DNA from: Lacticaseibacillus rhamnosus
Lineage (GTDB): Bacteria; Bacillota; Bacilli; Lactobacillales; Lactobacillaceae
Direction: 5' to 3'
NCBI RefSeq assembly: GCF_900636965.1
Contig: NZ_LR134331.1
Span: 1-64,000 of the forward strand
Length of the DNA stretch: 64,000 bases
Numbering within the stretch: position 1 is the stretch's first letter; every line of letters starts with the position of its first letter. A program made the translations under genes and the position numbers. The notes beneath the pieces were generated by a model, which searched no databases, was not told the origin of the DNA, and saw only the letters and a list, made by a program, of their open reading frames with translations. Positions 4,888-28,694 of the stretch are shown here, piece by piece.

Positions 4888-6849
4888 GTGACGGACAAGA
4901 AAGAATCGGCCGAAGAAAAGAAAGAAGAACTGGCAGCAGAATATGATGCTAGTCAAATTCAGGTGCTGTCAGGACTCGAAGCGGTTCGCAAGCGCCCAGG
5001 AATGTACATCGGCTCAACTAGCAGTCAAGGATTGCATCATTTAGTTTGGGAAATCATTGATAACGGGATTGACGAAGCGTTGGCTGGGTTTGCAACGCGA
5101 ATTGAAGTTGAAGTCAACCCGGATAACAGTGTGACCGTTACCGATGACGGCCGTGGGATTCCAGTCGACATTCAGGCAAAAACCGGTCGTCCGGCGCTTG
5201 AGACGGTTTATACGGTTTTGCATGCCGGTGGTAAGTTTGGCGGTGGCGGCTATAAGGTCTCCGGCGGTTTGCATGGTGTCGGCGCTTCGGTTGTCAATGC
5301 GCTATCAACGAATCTGGACGTGACGGTTGTTCGCGGCGGCAAACGGTATTACATCGACTTTGTGCGTGGCAAGGTTAACACGCCGATGAAAGAACTTGGC
5401 CCGGCACCGGAGCATGAGCATGGCACCAAGGTTCATTTTCAGCCGGATCCGGATATTTTCACGGAAACCACAACGTTTGATGATAAAGTCCTGACAACGC
5501 GGATTCGTGAGTTGGCCTTTTTGAATAAGGGGCTTAAGCTGACGTTTACTGATAAGCGTGCGGCGACTCATGAAAAGCTGGTGTTTCATTATGAAGGCGG
5601 CTTGAAATCTTATGTTGATTTCCTGACGAAGAAGAAAGAAAACCTGCTGCAGGAACCGATTTATGTGGAAGGTCAGGATAAAGGCATTACGGTTGAAGTC
5701 GCGCTGCAGTATACGAATGACTATCACAGCACGCTGTTGACGTTTGCCAATAACATTCACACCTACGAAGGCGGTACCCACGAAACCGGGTTTAAAACGG
5801 CCCTGACGCGGGTGATTAATGATTATGCTCGGCGTTCCGGTGCGCTTAAAGACAGCGATGATCCGCTCAGTGGGGATGACGTTCGGGAAGGCTTAACCGC
5901 AGTTGTTTCGGTCAAGCATCCTGATCCGCAGTTTGAAGGCCAGACCAAGACCAAACTGGGGAACTCGGATGCCCGCACGGTGGTTGATCGTACCTTCTCC
6001 GATCACTTCAACAAATTTCTTATGGAACATCCGGCTGACGGCAAGCTCATTATTGACAAGGCCATGCTTGCCAGCAAAGCCCGCTTAGCTGCTAAACGGG
6101 CGCGTGAAGTAACGCGTAAGAAGAGCGGCTTGGAAATCTCCAATCTGCCAGGGAAGTTAGCTGACAACACCAGTAAAGATCCGGAAATTTCCGAATTGTT
6201 CATTGTCGAAGGGGATTCCGCTGGCGGCTCGGCTAAGTCGGGACGCAGCCGGTTGACCCAAGCGATTTTGCCAATTCGCGGTAAGATTCTGAATGTTGAA
6301 AAAGCCTCCATGGAACGTATTTTGGCCAATGAAGAAATCAGAACGTTATTCACGGCGATGGGCACCGGTTTTGGTCAGGACTTTGACATTAGCAAGGCCC
6401 GTTATCACAAGTTGATCATCATGACCGATGCCGATGTCGATGGCGCCCATATCCGGACGTTGTTGCTGACGCTGATTTATCGCTATATGCGGCCGGTGCT
6501 TGATGCTGGCTACGTGTATATCGCCCAGCCACCGTTGTATCGCCTGCGTCAAGGTAAAATGATGCGCTACATCGATTCCGATGAAGAGCTACAGGATATT
6601 CTGGGGCAACTGCCGCCTAGCCCAAAGCCGGATATTCAACGGTATAAAGGGCTTGGTGAAATGGACGCCAGCCAGCTTTGGGAAACCACCATGGATCCTG
6701 ACACGCGCCGACTTTTACGGGTATCGCCAAAAGATGCTGAACAAGCAGATGGCATTTTTGAAATGCTGATGGGCGATCATGTTGAGCCGCGGCGGAAGTT
6801 TATCGAAGAAAATGCGGTCTTTGTTGATCCGAACAACATTGACGTATGA
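4888..6849 (+). CDS. gyrB: DNA gyrase subunit B
   Basis: GyrB provides ATP hydrolysis and part of the DNA cleavage centre of gyrase (GyrA2GyrB2), which introduces negative supercoils. The 653-residue protein shows the GHKL ATP-binding motifs ([31 protein letters not shown]), a transducer domain, and TOPRIM motifs [13 protein letters not shown] and DADVDGAHI. It ends with the short C-terminal GyrB domain containing QRYKGLGEM. It starts with GTG at 4888, preceded by GAGGAGG at 4875-4881. It lies 62 bp upstream of gyrA. Confidence 0.98.
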
Positions 6850-6911
6850 TAGATCGCTTTTAGGATGCAGACAGGTAAAATGAGAACTTTTGAGAGGAGA
6901 CTTTTCGCTTA

Positions 6912-23056: not shown

Positions 23057-24633
23057 AGTGCCTGGTGATTTAGGCTGCGGTTTCTGGCCGAATTTCAGTC
23101 ACTTTATAGTTGATTTGATAATGCAGGCCACCCTGTTCGACCACAATAGAAATTGGTACAGAAAAAAGCTTAAGGAGGAGGTCGATATTTGCCAATGCAA
23201 TCGCGCTATCCACCGTTACCACCAAGGACTCAGCCGTTCTGGTGTTCACTAAGTCAAGCCCAAGTGAACCTTTCAAGAAGGCAAACTTGCGCTCAATGGC
23301 ACCGCGACGGTTTTCCGCACTGACATCGGCTTTGCGCTGTTTCGGATCCACATGTTTGGGCTTTCGACCCAGCTTTGGCCCATTAAGTTTAATGCCTAGC
23401 TTCTTACACAGATTGATGTTATCTCGCGTGCGATAGAGAGTATCGACCAGCACCTCATCCGGATATTCACCCACTAGGTCAAAAGCATGGTCAAGCGTTA
23501 CTTCAAGATCAGTGCTTTCGTTAAATGAATTGAAGTCGAAACGCTCTACATCAATCACGCCATCCAACATGGAACAGTCAATCTTGGCGCCAAACTCAAC
23601 GGACTGCTTTGCCTTACCTCGCACGATTGGCCGGATATACGGCTGTTGAAGGCTAACGATGCGATTCTCGACATGGTGAGTGTGGTTCTCAAACATGAAG
23701 AGCTGCTGCTCATAGACTTGTTTAATCACTTCCAGACGCTGTGCTTGCCAATCAGTGAGCTGACCGCCTTGCGCAAGCAGTTCCGCCACATATCGCAGAT
23801 CTCTTCGGATGTATTGTAGCTGAGCCTGAAGCTGTTTGCGGCGTTCCTTGTTTTGACGCCGCGGTTTCCTCGAAAAAGCGGTCCACTTACCTTTTGCTTC
23901 ACGTCTGTACGTCCGCGGAATTTCCACACCTAACCCGTGGGCCAGATCTGTGACCATTTGTTCGAGATTCAAACGACTCTGGTTAAGCAGCGTTGTATCT
24001 TGGGGATACTTGATCTTGACCGGAACGGCAGTCGCATCACTAATCAAAACATGTGTCCCCTCAGGTAGATCGGCCTCCAACCGCTCGCGCGTGAAGTCAT
24101 TAGTAATGTTGCGGATCAAATCTGAGATGGCTGAAAGCCGTTGGCGAAAGTGCACCAACGTTGTGTGTTCAAATGGCTTCTTAGCGCGATATTCGGGTAA
24201 TCCGATGAAGTACTGATAGGCTGGTGTATCACGGATATCGTCGACAACTTGGCGGTCGGTCAGGCCTTTCTTCAACTGGATCAACGTTGCGCCATAAAGC
24301 AATCGAAATGGCTTCGCTGCTCGGCCGGTTTTTGAAGGGAACTGTAATTGGTATGCCTCTTCAAGTTTGGCCCATGGGATCAATTCTGCATATTGAACCC
24401 ACTCGTTGTCCGGGCTGAGCGGTGTTCCCAGAGCGCTTCCAAAGGATTCAAGTGATAGTTGCGTTGCTTTTTGACGATAAACCATGATCAATTCCTCCGA
24501 TAGGTCAGCGATAAGTGCAAGGGTAAATCCCAAAGCATAGGCATTTCGGGCAAATAAGGCTTACACTTATTATACACTTAACTATTGTCAAAGCCTATCA
24601 TGAAAGTACTTTTATAGTTTTTCACCATCCACT
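23057..24633 (-). mobile_element. Insertion sequence, copy 3 (1577 bp, reverse orientation)
   Basis: Same element as those at 10176 and 12182, inverted, with a 4-bp duplication AATT (23053-23056 and 24634-24637). It is inserted in the ABC-2 permease gene in the same direction as that gene. Confidence 0.92.
23070..24485 (-). CDS. DDE transposase of IS copy 3
   Basis: The 471-residue protein is identical to the other two transposases in the window. The start at 24485 is chosen for its GGAGG site. Three identical proteins at unlinked target sites indicate recent transposition. Confidence 0.9.
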   Translation of the reverse strand: MVYRQKATQLSLESFGSALGTPLSPDNEWVQYAELIPWAKLEEAYQLQFPSKTGRAAKPFRLLYGATLIQLKKGLTDRQVVDDIRDTPAYQYFIGLPEYRAKKPFEHTTLVHFRQRLSAISDLIRNITNDFTRERLEADLPEGTHVLISDATAVPVKIKYPQDTTLLNQSRLNLEQMVTDLAHGLGVEIPRTYRREAKGKWTAFSRKPRRQNKERRKQLQAQLQYIRRDLRYVAELLAQGGQLTDWQAQRLEVIKQVYEQQLFMFENHTHHVENRIVSLQQPYIRPIVRGKAKQSVEFGAKIDCSMLDGVIDVERFDFNSFNESTDLEVTLDHAFDLVGEYPDEVLVDTLYRTRDNINLCKKLGIKLNGPKLGRKPKHVDPKQRKADVSAENRRGAIERKFAFLKGSLGLDLVNTRTAESLVVTVDSAIALANIDLLLKLFSVPISIVVEQGGLHYQINYKVTEIRPETAA

Positions 24634-25744: not shown

Positions 25745-26481
25745 TTGTTTAATCCTTTATCGTGGCGAGAATCAGTGGAACAGCATTTCTTTCAAATTCA
25801 TTTTTAGGACAATGAAGTGTTCCAGACTTTTTTATAGGGACAACTCCCCAAGCAAACTGCAAGGGAATTAGGTTAAACACTAATGGAAAAGGGATAGGAT
25901 GTTATTTGAGTTCGTTGAGAAGTTCAGATATTTGGGATCTTCTAAATAATTTTCCGCTCATCACTAAAAGTATTTTATCAAATATATAAAACGCTTTCAA
26001 TGATATTGGCGGCGGACTGTAAATTTTGCTCATTTACAATAATAATGAAAATCAGAATTTTGATAACAACAATAAAATCGATAATGAGAAATCAAGTACC
26101 GTATTTTTATAACTGCTGAGAAACCCAATAAGGGCGGGCTTCGTATCCAACAAGAAATACTGGTAAGCATACCTGCGTGCGACGTATCTTAACATCCTCC
26201 TAAAATATTAATTGACAATGATGTTCAACAAATGCTAAGGTGAAAATCGCTTCATAAAGCGTAATGATTACGATTTAAGAGGCGAGATTGCTTTTATATC
26301 AACCAAGCGGGTACTAACTGGCGCTGTATATCTATAGAAGCAATGAATCCTTGTTGGCCGATAAAGAAACACACCCGTTGATCAGTTCGCTAGCTTTGTT
26401 TGAAAACACTGGTTAGGAACCAAGGCTACTCAGACTGAGGCGGCTTATCCGGATTGGTTGACGCTAATGAGGGGGTTATTC
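25745..26481 (+). promoter_or_regulatory. Long regulatory gap with Zur box and promoter upstream of the Amt-like gene
   Basis: No gene is seen in 25745-26200, only AT-rich sequence with a cre-like site (about 12 of 14) at 25986-25999. A promoter is likely at TTGACA 26212-26217 with an extended TGCTAAGGT -10 (core about 26236-26241). A near-perfect Zur box follows at 26256-26276. Its core TAAT-G-ATTA sits inside CGTAATGATTACG and matches the Bacillus consensus TCGTAATNATTACGA except for its first base. The flanking AAA/TTT match as well. The leader from there to the start codon is about 200 nt. Confidence 0.75.
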
Positions 26482-27567
26482 ATGTTTGCACTTGTTTGTT
26501 TCTTGATCATGTTGCCGATGATCTTTAGTGTGCCACTGCTGTATGTCGGGATGATGCCACGGGTTCGCCAGCAATCAGCACTTTTAACCATGAGTATTGC
26601 GTTAATGATTGCGATTGCCTGTTGGTTGGTTTTTGGTAACCGCCTGGCATTTGGTTTTGACTTATTACACGCAACAACTTTTTCATCATTATCTGCTGGC
26701 TTGGTACAAATGGATTTTTACTTATATGCGGTTGCGATGTTGATGGGTACGATCGCTGGTAACAGGAACAGCCGCTACATGTTTGGCTTTGTTCCGGTGT
26801 GGACTGTGTTGGTGTACTGCCCGCTTGCACACTGGCTATGGGCTGATCATGGGTGGTTGCGACAATTAGGTGCTTTGGACTTTTCCGGCGGCATTGTCGT
26901 GCATTTGACGGCAGGGTTGACGAGTTTGGTGCTGGCAAAAGCGTTACTTCCAGGTGATCAGCCGAGTATGCCAAATGATTTTCGAACTGATTACGCGGCA
27001 ACGATCATGATTCTGGTTGGCTGGTTAGGGTTTAACTTAGCCCCGGCAGGCAGTTTGAATAAGCTTGCCGGACAGGTGCTGATTAATACATTCGTGGCCG
27101 TGTTGATGGCGATGATCGGTTGGTATTGGCTGACTTATCGGCAAAATGGTGTGGTGCAGTTAGGCGATTTGTTGAATGGCGTGCTGTGTGGTTTGGTAAC
27201 CAGTACCGCTTTAGTCGGATATGTCGGGGCATTGAGCATGGCCATTGTTGCTGCCGTTGCTGGCGTGATTTGTCGGCAGATGGTTTCAAAAATGCAGCAT
27301 TCAAAACATTTCTATGATGTGGTAGATTCTTTTGCGATGAATGCTGTCGGTGGGATCACAGGGGCTGTTGGCTTAATGATTGTCCAATTCTTTAATGGGA
27401 CTCATGCAATAGCGACCGCGGGGAAGTTCGCAGTGGTTGAACTTTTAGCTGTGGTGGTCGCGGCTGGGTTGACGGTTATTGGCACAATGGTTGCGCAGTT
27501 AGTTGCTAAGGCGTGTGAAGCTGGCGTAACACGGGTGATGAATCTTGACAGTGAACGGTTGAATTGA
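26482..27567 (+). CDS. Ammonium transporter (Amt/Mep/Rh) family membrane protein, atypical
   Basis: The 361-residue protein has about ten or eleven hydrophobic helices and Amt hallmarks. It has DFSGGIVVHLTAG with the first pore His (His141), GWLGFNLAP and DSFAMNAVGGITGA. In that last motif the second pore histidine of AmtB (His318 in E. coli) is replaced by Asn287. The start at ATG 26482 is chosen because AGGGGGT lies 7 bp upstream; TTG 26458 would lack a site. No glnK/PII gene is adjacent. The next gene overlaps or abuts and encodes a Cys-tailed flavoprotein; both lie behind a Zur box. The substrate may not be ammonium. Confidence 0.85.
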   Translation: MFALVCFLIMLPMIFSVPLLYVGMMPRVRQQSALLTMSIALMIAIACWLVFGNRLAFGFDLLHATTFSSLSAGLVQMDFYLYAVAMLMGTIAGNRNSRYMFGFVPVWTVLVYCPLAHWLWADHGWLRQLGALDFSGGIVVHLTAGLTSLVLAKALLPGDQPSMPNDFRTDYAATIMILVGWLGFNLAPAGSLNKLAGQVLINTFVAVLMAMIGWYWLTYRQNGVVQLGDLLNGVLCGLVTSTALVGYVGALSMAIVAAVAGVICRQMVSKMQHSKHFYDVVDSFAMNAVGGITGAVGLMIVQFFNGTHAIATAGKFAVVELLAVVVAAGLTVIGTMVAQLVAKACEAGVTRVMNLDSERLN

Positions 27568-27584
27568 CAAAAGGAGCGATTTGG

Positions 27585-28694
27585 ATGAATCAAATGACGA
27601 TTATTGGTGGTGGAGCAGCGGGCGTTGGTATCGGTATCATGTTAGAACAACTTGGCTGCAGTCAATTTCAGATTCTTGAGCAGGAAGAAATTGGCGCAAG
27701 TTTCCGACGTTGGCCAAAAGAAACGCGATTCATTACGCCATCCTTTACCAGTAACGGATTCGGCATGCCGGATTTGAATGCCGTCAGTATGGAGACCTCG
27801 CCTGCGTATACGCTTGGTGCAGAGCATCTGAGTGGTTCACAATTTGCCGATTATCTTAAATTGTTGGCGGATACTTACGCATTACCGATCGCTGAACATA
27901 CGCGCGTTGGTGCAATTTCACCGACTACTGAAGGTTATCAACTCGAAACGAATCACGGCGTCGTGACCACCAAGTACTTGATCATGGCAGTCGGTCAGTA
28001 TGCTTTCCCTAAATTAACCGATCATCCGGAAAACGTCATTCACTATCAGCAAGTGACCTCGTGGCAGGACTTGACGGGGAAAACCCAGATTGTGATTGGC
28101 GGAAACGAAAGTGGAGTTGATGCGGCTATCAATTTGGCAACGCTAGGCCATAAGGTACTTTTGTTGACCAAGGAAACGGGTCTGAATGCGGCATCGGCCG
28201 ACCCAAGTATTCGGTTGGCACCGTACACACGGCGGCGATTCTTGGATTTGCCAGCGGAAGTTGCTAACAGAATCACGTTACAAGAGAAGATTGCGTTGAA
28301 GACCGTCACGCGCACCCAGGATTCCCAGTATCAATTGTGGTTTACAGACGGACGTACGATTACGACGCCGTATAAGCCCGTTCTATGCACAGGTTTTGAT
28401 GCCGGCCCGTTAAAACTCTGGCCACAATTATTTGAAAATAATGATGGCGAAATTGCTTTGAATGACGTTGATGAATCAACTCAGGCGAAAAATGTATTTG
28501 TTGCCGGGCCTGATGTACGCCACGAGGATGCGATTTTCTGTTACATTTACAAATTCCGCCAGCGTTTCGGAGTGATCGTTAATGAGATCGCTAAACGGGA
28601 ACAATGGGACATCGGGGACTTTGTTAAAATCAGCCGCGCCAATAGTTTCTATCTTGATGATTGTGCAACTTGTGATGTTGCTTGTGACTGCTGA
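27585..28694 (+). CDS. FAD/NAD(P)-binding oxidoreductase (CzcO/YpdA-like) with Cys-rich tail
   Basis: The 369-residue flavoprotein has an N-terminal FAD Rossmann motif GGGAAGVG (from residue 8) and a second nucleotide-binding motif VIGGNESGVDAA near residue 175. The late FAD motif NVFVAGPD is near residue 305. It resembles flavin monooxygenase-like proteins annotated as CzcO. The extreme C-terminus reads CATCDVACDC, with Cys360, 363, 367 and 369, a plausible metal- or thiol-binding tail. The start at 27585 has AAAGGAGCG; an upstream in-frame start overlapping the Amt-like gene is less likely. It lies 17 bp after that gene and is surely co-transcribed, under the same Zur box. Confidence 0.82.
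   Translation: MNQMTIIGGGAAGVGIGIMLEQLGCSQFQILEQEEIGASFRRWPKETRFITPSFTSNGFGMPDLNAVSMETSPAYTLGAEHLSGSQFADYLKLLADTYALPIAEHTRVGAISPTTEGYQLETNHGVVTTKYLIMAVGQYAFPKLTDHPENVIHYQQVTSWQDLTGKTQIVIGGNESGVDAAINLATLGHKVLLLTKETGLNAASADPSIRLAPYTRRRFLDLPAEVANRITLQEKIALKTVTRTQDSQYQLWFTDGRTITTPYKPVLCTGFDAGPLKLWPQLFENNDGEIALNDVDESTQAKNVFVAGPDVRHEDAIFCYIYKFRQRFGVIVNEIAKREQWDIGDFVKISRANSFYLDDCATCDVACDC

Follow-up and report, generated by a model that had tools for sequence, protein, structure and literature searches.

An Amt-like gene with asparagine at the second pore-histidine site, paired with a Cys-tailed flavoprotein gene behind a zinc-regulator box in Lacticaseibacillus rhamnosus

The locus

The window analysed here, a stretch of 64,000 nucleotides from Lacticaseibacillus rhamnosus, carries two neighbouring genes on its forward strand, one for a protein of the Amt fold and one for a flavoprotein, with a palindromic Zur box upstream:

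26256..26276, palindrome, no strand assigned: Zur box, AAAGCGTAATGATTACGATTT, 205 bases 5' of the amt-like start codon
26482..27567, + strand: amt-like gene of the Asn clade, 361 aa, Amt fold (ATG at 26482, stop at 27567)
27585..28694, + strand: FAD/NAD(P)H-type flavoprotein gene, 369 aa (ATG at 27585, 17 bp past the amt-like stop)
28539..28541, + strand: Cys319 codon, within a C-Y/F-I/V-YKFR-x-RF motif, invariant in 20 aligned rows
28662..28691, + strand: Cys tail CATCDVACDC, a conserved C-x2-C-x3-C-x-C pattern at the extreme C-terminus

An earlier note on this DNA had described an Amt-like channel with Asn287 in place of the second of the twin histidines, no PII gene nearby, a partner flavoprotein ending CATCDVACDC and a Zur box, and had proposed that the pair may be an undescribed two-gene system for metal stress or for thiol and metal handling. 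These four descriptive statements are borne out by the results given below; the proposal itself has been altered. The ORF at 27585-28694 does end in the stated residues, and the box matches 19 of the 20 specified positions of the Zur consensus AAATCGTAATNATTACGATTT, leaving one mismatch; the number of matches with at most three mismatches expected by chance in the window is 0.01. The nearest homologues with a species name belong to L. paracasei, L. casei, L. chiayiensis and L. zeae. No upstream RNA element was recognized by Rfam at the gathering threshold, and scans for σ70 promoters and for terminators gave nothing above shuffled sequence. A transposase-like ORF of 487 aa (23070-24533, minus strand; identified by eye) lies further upstream, with ABC transporter genes on both sides.

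The pore of the Amt-like protein

The PF00909 match and the Amt fold of the 361-aa protein place it in the Amt/Mep/Rh superfamily, while its score of 144.5 bits against the NCBIfam amt model (TIGR00836) lies below the cut-off of 343.3 bits. When positions are numbered by E. coli AmtB (EcAmtB), using pairwise alignments and constant offsets, His141 aligns with H168, the first pore histidine, and Asn287 with H318, the second. A comparison of 37 clade rows with 93 rows of ordinary Amts yields exactly seven diagnostic columns and no others; the 37 rows, like the 31 loci considered below, are partly non-independent, with several species per genus and some species in both of the row sets. These columns and the retained histidine are encoded as follows:

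26725..26727, + strand: Tyr82 codon; EcAmtB I110; Tyr in 37/37 clade rows, Ile or Val in 93/93 ordinary Amts
26737..26739, + strand: Met86 codon; EcAmtB L114; Met in 37/37 clade rows, Leu in 93/93 ordinary Amts
26884..26886, + strand: Ser135 codon; EcAmtB A162; Ser in 37/37 clade rows, Ala in 93/93 ordinary Amts
26902..26904, + strand: His141 codon, first pore histidine, kept; EcAmtB H168; His in 22/22 clade rows and 92/92 other rows
27043..27045, + strand: Pro188 codon; EcAmtB S219 (S1 ammonium site); Pro in 37/37 clade rows, Ser in 93/93 ordinary Amts
27202..27204, + strand: Ser241 codon; EcAmtB position 272, by offset; Ser in 37/37 clade rows, Ile or Val in 93/93 ordinary Amts
27328..27330, + strand: Ser283 codon; EcAmtB V314, pore lining; Ser in 36/37 clade rows (Thr in 1), Ala or Val in 93/93 ordinary Amts
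27340..27342, + strand: Asn287 codon; EcAmtB H318, second pore histidine; Asn in 37/37 clade rows, His in 93/93 ordinary Amts

The survey of Amt homologues that the earlier note had called for thus finds the Asn substitution fixed, and the twin-His motif by which a functional ammonium transporter is recognized is incomplete throughout the clade. A conserved histidine elsewhere in the pore had been named as grounds for abandoning the idea; His141 is the only invariant histidine in the clade alignments, and so no other conserved pore histidine takes over. The Asn clade and ordinary Amts do not differ in the Phe gate, Trp120 or Asp133. I110, L114, A162 and V272 of EcAmtB are presumably pore-lining positions, and taken together the changes (I110Y, L114M, A162S, S219P, V272S, V314S and H318N in E. 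coli numbering) suggest that the pore has been rebuilt from a hydrophobic ammonia route to a polar one. Three of the seven columns correspond to pore or binding residues named in the accessible parts of the literature, namely H318, S219 of the S1 site (PMC10433425) and V314 (PMC7447429); the retained H168 is named there as well. A 2020 paper, in the portions available, gives first-His-to-Glu as the only natural change in the twin-His pair; the Asn clade is an exception to that statement. Within the accessible engineered-AmtB literature, neither H318N, or any other asparagine at the second histidine, nor a trial of divalent ions was found.

What such a pore would conduct is suggested in part by engineered proteins. 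EcAmtB H318A is reported to give K+ currents and non-saturable movement of NH4+, which its authors read as a switch to a hydrated-ion channel (PMC7447429, as far as accessible), and AmtB and Mep2 with polar twin-His variants are reported to lose selectivity against K+ (PMC9040831, likewise). Accordingly, the Asn Amt could be a monovalent channel for NH4+ or K+, with the pair tuning ammonium, potassium or pH in zinc-starved cells; zinc control would then be real and the cargo non-metal. The polar changes in the clade's pore point the same way, as does the annotation of the S. agalactiae flavoprotein as 'involved in potassium transport', a name whose basis is not given in the accessible text of PMC11580457. 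However, this explanation leaves the FeoB relative that serves as partner elsewhere, and the Cys tail, unaccounted for, and the window's genome already encodes an ordinary Amt besides (L137), in which the two pore histidines are present. It is a serious alternative, although a rather unlikely one. Transport of ammonium or methylammonium is a candidate function of the window's protein; coupling of ammonium uptake to PII was rejected, because the whole genome, and not just the neighbourhood of the pair, lacks a PII gene by a search that was positive in 13 of 14 control genomes.

At some loci (L027, L028, L031, L035, L105 and L149) the Asn amt ORF is split or contains a stop, the hosts being Lentilactobacillus parakefiri, Streptococcus penaeicida, S. 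bovimastitidis, S. uberis, an Enterococcus-like genome and another Streptococcus. These broken ORFs may reflect real decay or sequencing error, and they suggest that the channel is perhaps dispensable at those loci. In a further Streptococcus genome, G1098, two Amt fragments score 143-158 bits, and one of them contains a stop; they fall outside the classification into clade and ordinary Amts. The broken ORFs would fit a decaying ammonium channel that merely hitch-hikes with its neighbour, Asn287 being the product of drift. However, seven substitutions are fixed across the 37 rows in a protein whose gate and fold are otherwise conserved, and the zinc box is conserved in distant genera; both observations argue against drift, which we regard as very improbable.

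The Cys-tailed flavoprotein

Absence of the Cys tail from most orthologues would have counted against the earlier note's proposal. Among the best 120 of 1819 flavoprotein homologues, that is, among near relatives, the C-x3-C-x-C end is present in 117 and altered or missing in 3, the motif around Cys319 is found in 113, and Cys makes up 24.6% of the last 16 residues as against 0.8% of the body. Residues 364-369 of the structural model have pLDDT below 50. The tail is missing in two Periweissella flavoproteins (L018, L019), and its last Cys in two from Lentilactobacillus (L013, L016). The conserved Cys pattern makes the tail a putative metal-binding element.

The window flavoprotein is homologous over its full length to 3d1c, the S. 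aureus 'flavin-containing putative monooxygenase', and together with the C-terminal C-x3-C-x-C this assigns it to the 3d1c family. Compared with better known flavoenzymes, of the YpdA/Bdr and FMO/N-hydroxylase kinds, it has no member-level score and carries the Cys tail as an addition. The ArsO flavin monooxygenase model (NF040505) gives 49.8 bits against a cut-off of 425, and the nearest NCBIfam model is that of bacillithiol disulfide reductase YpdA (TIGR04018; 1.2e-18, 67.1 bits against a cut-off of 339.9).

This nearest model, and Bdr/YpdA as the second-best fold match, lend something to the idea of a disulfide reductase resembling YpdA, in which the tail would pass electrons on to the oxidised zinc-site cysteines of apo-proteins, with the membrane partner only loosely coupled. 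COG0523 proteins, which are frequent neighbours in the Gate-type loci described below, would also suit such thiol repair. However, the regular pairing with a membrane protein is not explained in this way, and the active-site Cys of YpdA, which lies in a GGGPC-type sequence, is missing from the flavoprotein, which reads GGGAAG. Thiol repair therefore seems improbable.

Zinc control and pairing in Lactobacillales

Zur and AdcR are repressors that act in zinc-replete cells, and for this reason the 'metal stress' of the earlier note is better replaced by 'zinc deficiency'. A two-gene system under zinc control is itself well supported by the conserved pairing, the Zur and AdcR boxes and the zinc-starvation neighbours. 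In the window's genome, which has two Fur-family genes, further Zur boxes (17-19 of 20 positions) are found both in the interval that separates an S14 gene from a ZnuA-family gene and ahead of a znuC-like ABC gene; the boxes common to these genes indicate that the motif marks a coherent zinc regulon. Scanning the genome with a 15-base Zur pattern, at most one mismatch being allowed, gave 8 matches as against 3 for the reversed control, and two of the places found (L006 and L008, with full scores of 15 and 14 of 20) are away from zinc genes. Near the Zur-boxed S14 gene, at about 2.48 Mb of the genome (G000), there are two ZnuA-like lipoprotein genes (L138, 2669-3586 and 5400-6386), the first tested with Pfam and the second assigned by eye.

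Co-occurrence of the Asn Amt with the flavoprotein, another point on which the earlier note had asked for a survey, is regular. Clear matches to the clade are present in 14 of 395 Lactobacillales genomes, and the flavoprotein is adjacent in 14/14; a flavoprotein search (E <= 1e-40) of 295 genomes of the order gave 11 matches, all among these 14. In one named genome (L014) the flavoprotein gene is not near amt and is found elsewhere, behind its own 19/20 Zur box; at L022 the flavoprotein ORF is split. In Liquorilactobacillus sucicola (L012) a dCTP deaminase gene (6355-6876), which may possibly provide a zinc-free bypass of dCMP deaminase, stands between the two. A third conserved gene was not found among the 359 ORFs of 33 Amt-type loci (some species counted twice): the Amt cluster has members at 33 loci, the flavoprotein cluster at 32, the next at 7 and the rest at 4 or fewer.

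A zinc-regulator box, defined as a match of 16/20 or better for Zur and of 12/12 for AdcR, is present in 28 of 31 Amt-type loci, within 350 bp in 26 and further upstream in 2. The near boxes comprise 20 Zur boxes (16-19/20) and 6 perfect AdcR boxes; when each region was shuffled 100 times, none of the 26 near boxes upstream of amt was equalled more than once. L106 and L131, the latter an E. faecalis plasmid locus reached through its Amt match, have a 19/20 Zur box before a gene run headed by a ribosomal L32 gene, and L020, L022 and L105 have no recognisable Zur or AdcR box. By the presence of an operator-like site in the promoter region, the window's pair thus belongs with a Zur/AdcR regulon, and its zinc-dependent expression is predicted.

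Several of these loci have features of their own. The Zur-boxed L32 paralogue of 57 aa that heads the run containing the Asn Amt and flavoprotein genes lies at 3404-3577 in L106 and 4764-4937 in L131, both Enterococcus-type loci (Pfam assignment for L106). Pairs of YibE/F-family genes diverge from Zur boxes at L106 (1250-3065), L131 (2609-4424) and L012 (721-2660), the first assigned by Pfam and the others by eye, which suggests that the zinc regulon of these hosts includes YibE/F proteins. At L012 a sulfatase-family protein also starts immediately past the Zur box. In Periweissella fabalis (L018) the Asn Amt is preceded by boxes of both kinds, a Zur box matching 18/20 and a perfect AdcR box (4757 and 4823); the flavoprotein of this species is one of those without a Cys tail.

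Of the 12 loci from streptococci with an Asn Amt, 11 have a perfect AdcR box, the other (L146) matching 11 of 12 positions, and the flavoprotein gene is divergent and adjacent in 11 of 12. At L143 it lies 1.3 kb from the Asn Amt, and this locus also contains a transposase-like ORF (by eye). By comparison, none of 18 ordinary streptococcal Amt loci has a perfect AdcR box or the flavoprotein, and the second site is His in the 10 of these 18 that could be read. The regulator thus varies by lineage (Zur in most families, AdcR in Streptococcus), while zinc is the metal sensed throughout.

The word 'undescribed' in the earlier note holds in part. A study of zinc restriction in S. agalactiae lists sak_RS07375 (ammonium transporter) and sak_RS07380 (flavoprotein) among new AdcR targets, together with the rhodanese gene sak_RS07385 (PMC11580457), so that AdcR control of such a pair is already in print, with no role assigned in the accessible text. 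The likeness to the window's pair is by annotation: the same kinds of gene, neighbouring locus tags and a zinc repressor. The pore, the tail, conservation and function are not discussed in the accessible portions of that report.

A FeoB-like partner outside Lactobacillales

Elsewhere the flavoprotein has a different partner. A survey of 398 genomes of the class found it in 24, including the window's own; in the 19 of the other 23 that were read at full width, the flavoprotein gene is followed by a gene for a FeoB-like Gate protein (19/19 Bacilli loci). A Zur box lies within 350 bp in 14 of these 19, and in the other 5 it precedes the leading gene of the apparent operon; for L116, 3 of 100 shuffles equalled the near box. 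In a survey of 348 genomes of the phylum at E <= 1e-60, only the window's own flavoprotein was found. A plasmid collection gave 536 records with the flavoprotein, 497 of them Klebsiella. Among five plasmid loci read (L132-L136), four have the Gate partner and Acaryochloris (L135) does not; the Firmicute Zur consensus was not found in L133, L135 and L136. The window's type of pair also differs from the one staphylococcal locus read by name, on an S. epidermidis plasmid, where the flavoprotein is beside a Gate protein and not beside an Amt. Among the zinc-limitation genes that calprotectin and sulfide are reported to induce in S. aureus are one COG0523 gene and two for uncharacterised pyridine nucleotide-disulfide oxidoreductases (PMC5480029, accessible portions).

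The partner shares with the ferrous iron transporter FeoB a FeoB_N GTPase and two Gate stretches (3 of 4 proteins tested), and differs from it in its compact size (549-574 aa; 460 aa and no recognisable GTPase in S. epidermidis), in scores of 63.6-122.5 bits against the feoB cut-off of 315.65, and in its place in zinc-starvation islands. The Klebsiella plasmid locus (L133) is itself an island of zinc-starvation paralogues, with folE2, dksA, zigA, hisI and transcriptional repressors, and over the Klebsiella, Paenibacillus, Haloferax and S. epidermidis plasmid loci the neighbours include folE2, dksA, hisI, zigA/COG0523, S14 or znuA-like genes. A quick tree of 51 flavoprotein rows requires two changes between Amt and Gate partners, because staphylococcal Gate rows stand beside Amt rows on a weak branch, and the group with an Amt partner may have a single origin. 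This tree leaves out L022, L031, L131 and the duplicates L102, L103 and L111; the long rows L108 and L133 are unsure, many of the rows L112-L130 start one codon late, and L129 ends before the end of the tail, the partner labels being unaffected.

Paralogues of S14, L32, FolE2 and DksA are thought to replace zinc-requiring counterparts. The pair could, by analogy, be a zinc-free replacement of a zinc-requiring enzyme or transport step, in which an FMO-, N-hydroxylase- or YpdA-like oxidoreductase acts on a small molecule and the channel moves its substrate or product. However, a four-Cys tail is odd in a zinc-sparing protein, and two unrelated membrane partners would have to move the same small molecule. 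This, too, is a serious alternative, and an unlikely one.

A possible zinc-deficiency module

The explanation that we prefer, tentatively and as somewhat short of probable, is a module for zinc deficiency: a membrane cation path and the flavoprotein would together serve metal entry and hand-off, the tail acting as acceptor and the flavin keeping thiols reduced. Its constant part is the flavoprotein, whose partner in the membrane is related to FeoB or, among Lactobacillales, is an Amt with a rebuilt pore. The sites for zinc regulators, the gene pairing, the change of partner from lineage to lineage, the fixed substitutions in the pore and the conserved tail are observations; the cargo, the binding of metal by the tail and the part played by the flavin are inferences. 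Low zinc would cause Zur (AdcR in streptococci) to release the DNA, resulting in synthesis of the membrane cation path and of the cytosolic NAD(P)H flavoprotein. The membrane partner would then admit the cation in short supply, Zn(II) being the simplest choice, for the flexible Cys tail to receive and hold ready for client proteins, while the flavin would use NAD(P)H so that the tail thiols stay reduced. The tail may hold metal or shuttle thiols. Mercuric reductase MerA, likewise a FAD/NADPH protein with a C-terminal Cys pair, takes metal from a membrane importer and passes it on; it belongs to a different subfamily from the window flavoprotein.

Metal entry and hand-off is favoured because metal ions are what the FeoB family transports and zinc is what the regulators respond to, and the FeoB homology of the partner points to metal transport. 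Several observations weigh against it. Zinc has no redox chemistry, which leaves the flavin to be explained in another way, and the compact FeoB relatives are so far under the feoB cut-off that a metal cargo is only putative for them. The gate of the Amt shows no change, some of the flavoproteins lack the tail, 3 of 31 loci have no box and some amt genes are split or stopped. In addition, H318A, the closest engineered EcAmtB variant, passes NH4+ and K+ (PMC7447429, accessible portions). A more specific claim, and a somewhat unlikely one, is that the Amt fold acquired a new pore, became a cation channel for zinc starvation that possibly conducts Zn(II) itself, and so replaced a FeoB-type importer as the flavoprotein's partner.

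Implications

Compared with E. coli AmtB and the Amt-Mep-Rh family (PF00909), the window protein has Asn for the second pore histidine, Pro for S219 and five further changes; it falls below the NCBIfam amt cut-off, stands behind a zinc-regulator box and belongs to a genome without a PII gene. The Amt fold, the kind of zinc regulon and AdcR control of such a pair were known already; the fixed Asn clade, the pore rewrite, the conservation of Zur/AdcR boxes and the difference in partner are new, in that no description of any of them, or of the flavoprotein-FeoB-like pair, was found in searches of an open-access library. The Asn clade is a natural counter-example in which the second histidine is fixed as Asn, and it offers a ready test of what the twin-His motif is for. 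The finding also connects zinc deficiency, in Bacteria and in an archaeon, with a flavoprotein type of solved structure but no assigned function, 3d1c, and with a likewise unassigned FeoB-like protein, and it supplies a testable role for S. agalactiae AdcR targets already in print. If the preferred explanation is true, there would be a natural Amt clade without the twin-His mechanism, and a zinc-handling route of channel and flavoprotein common to Bacteria and Archaea.
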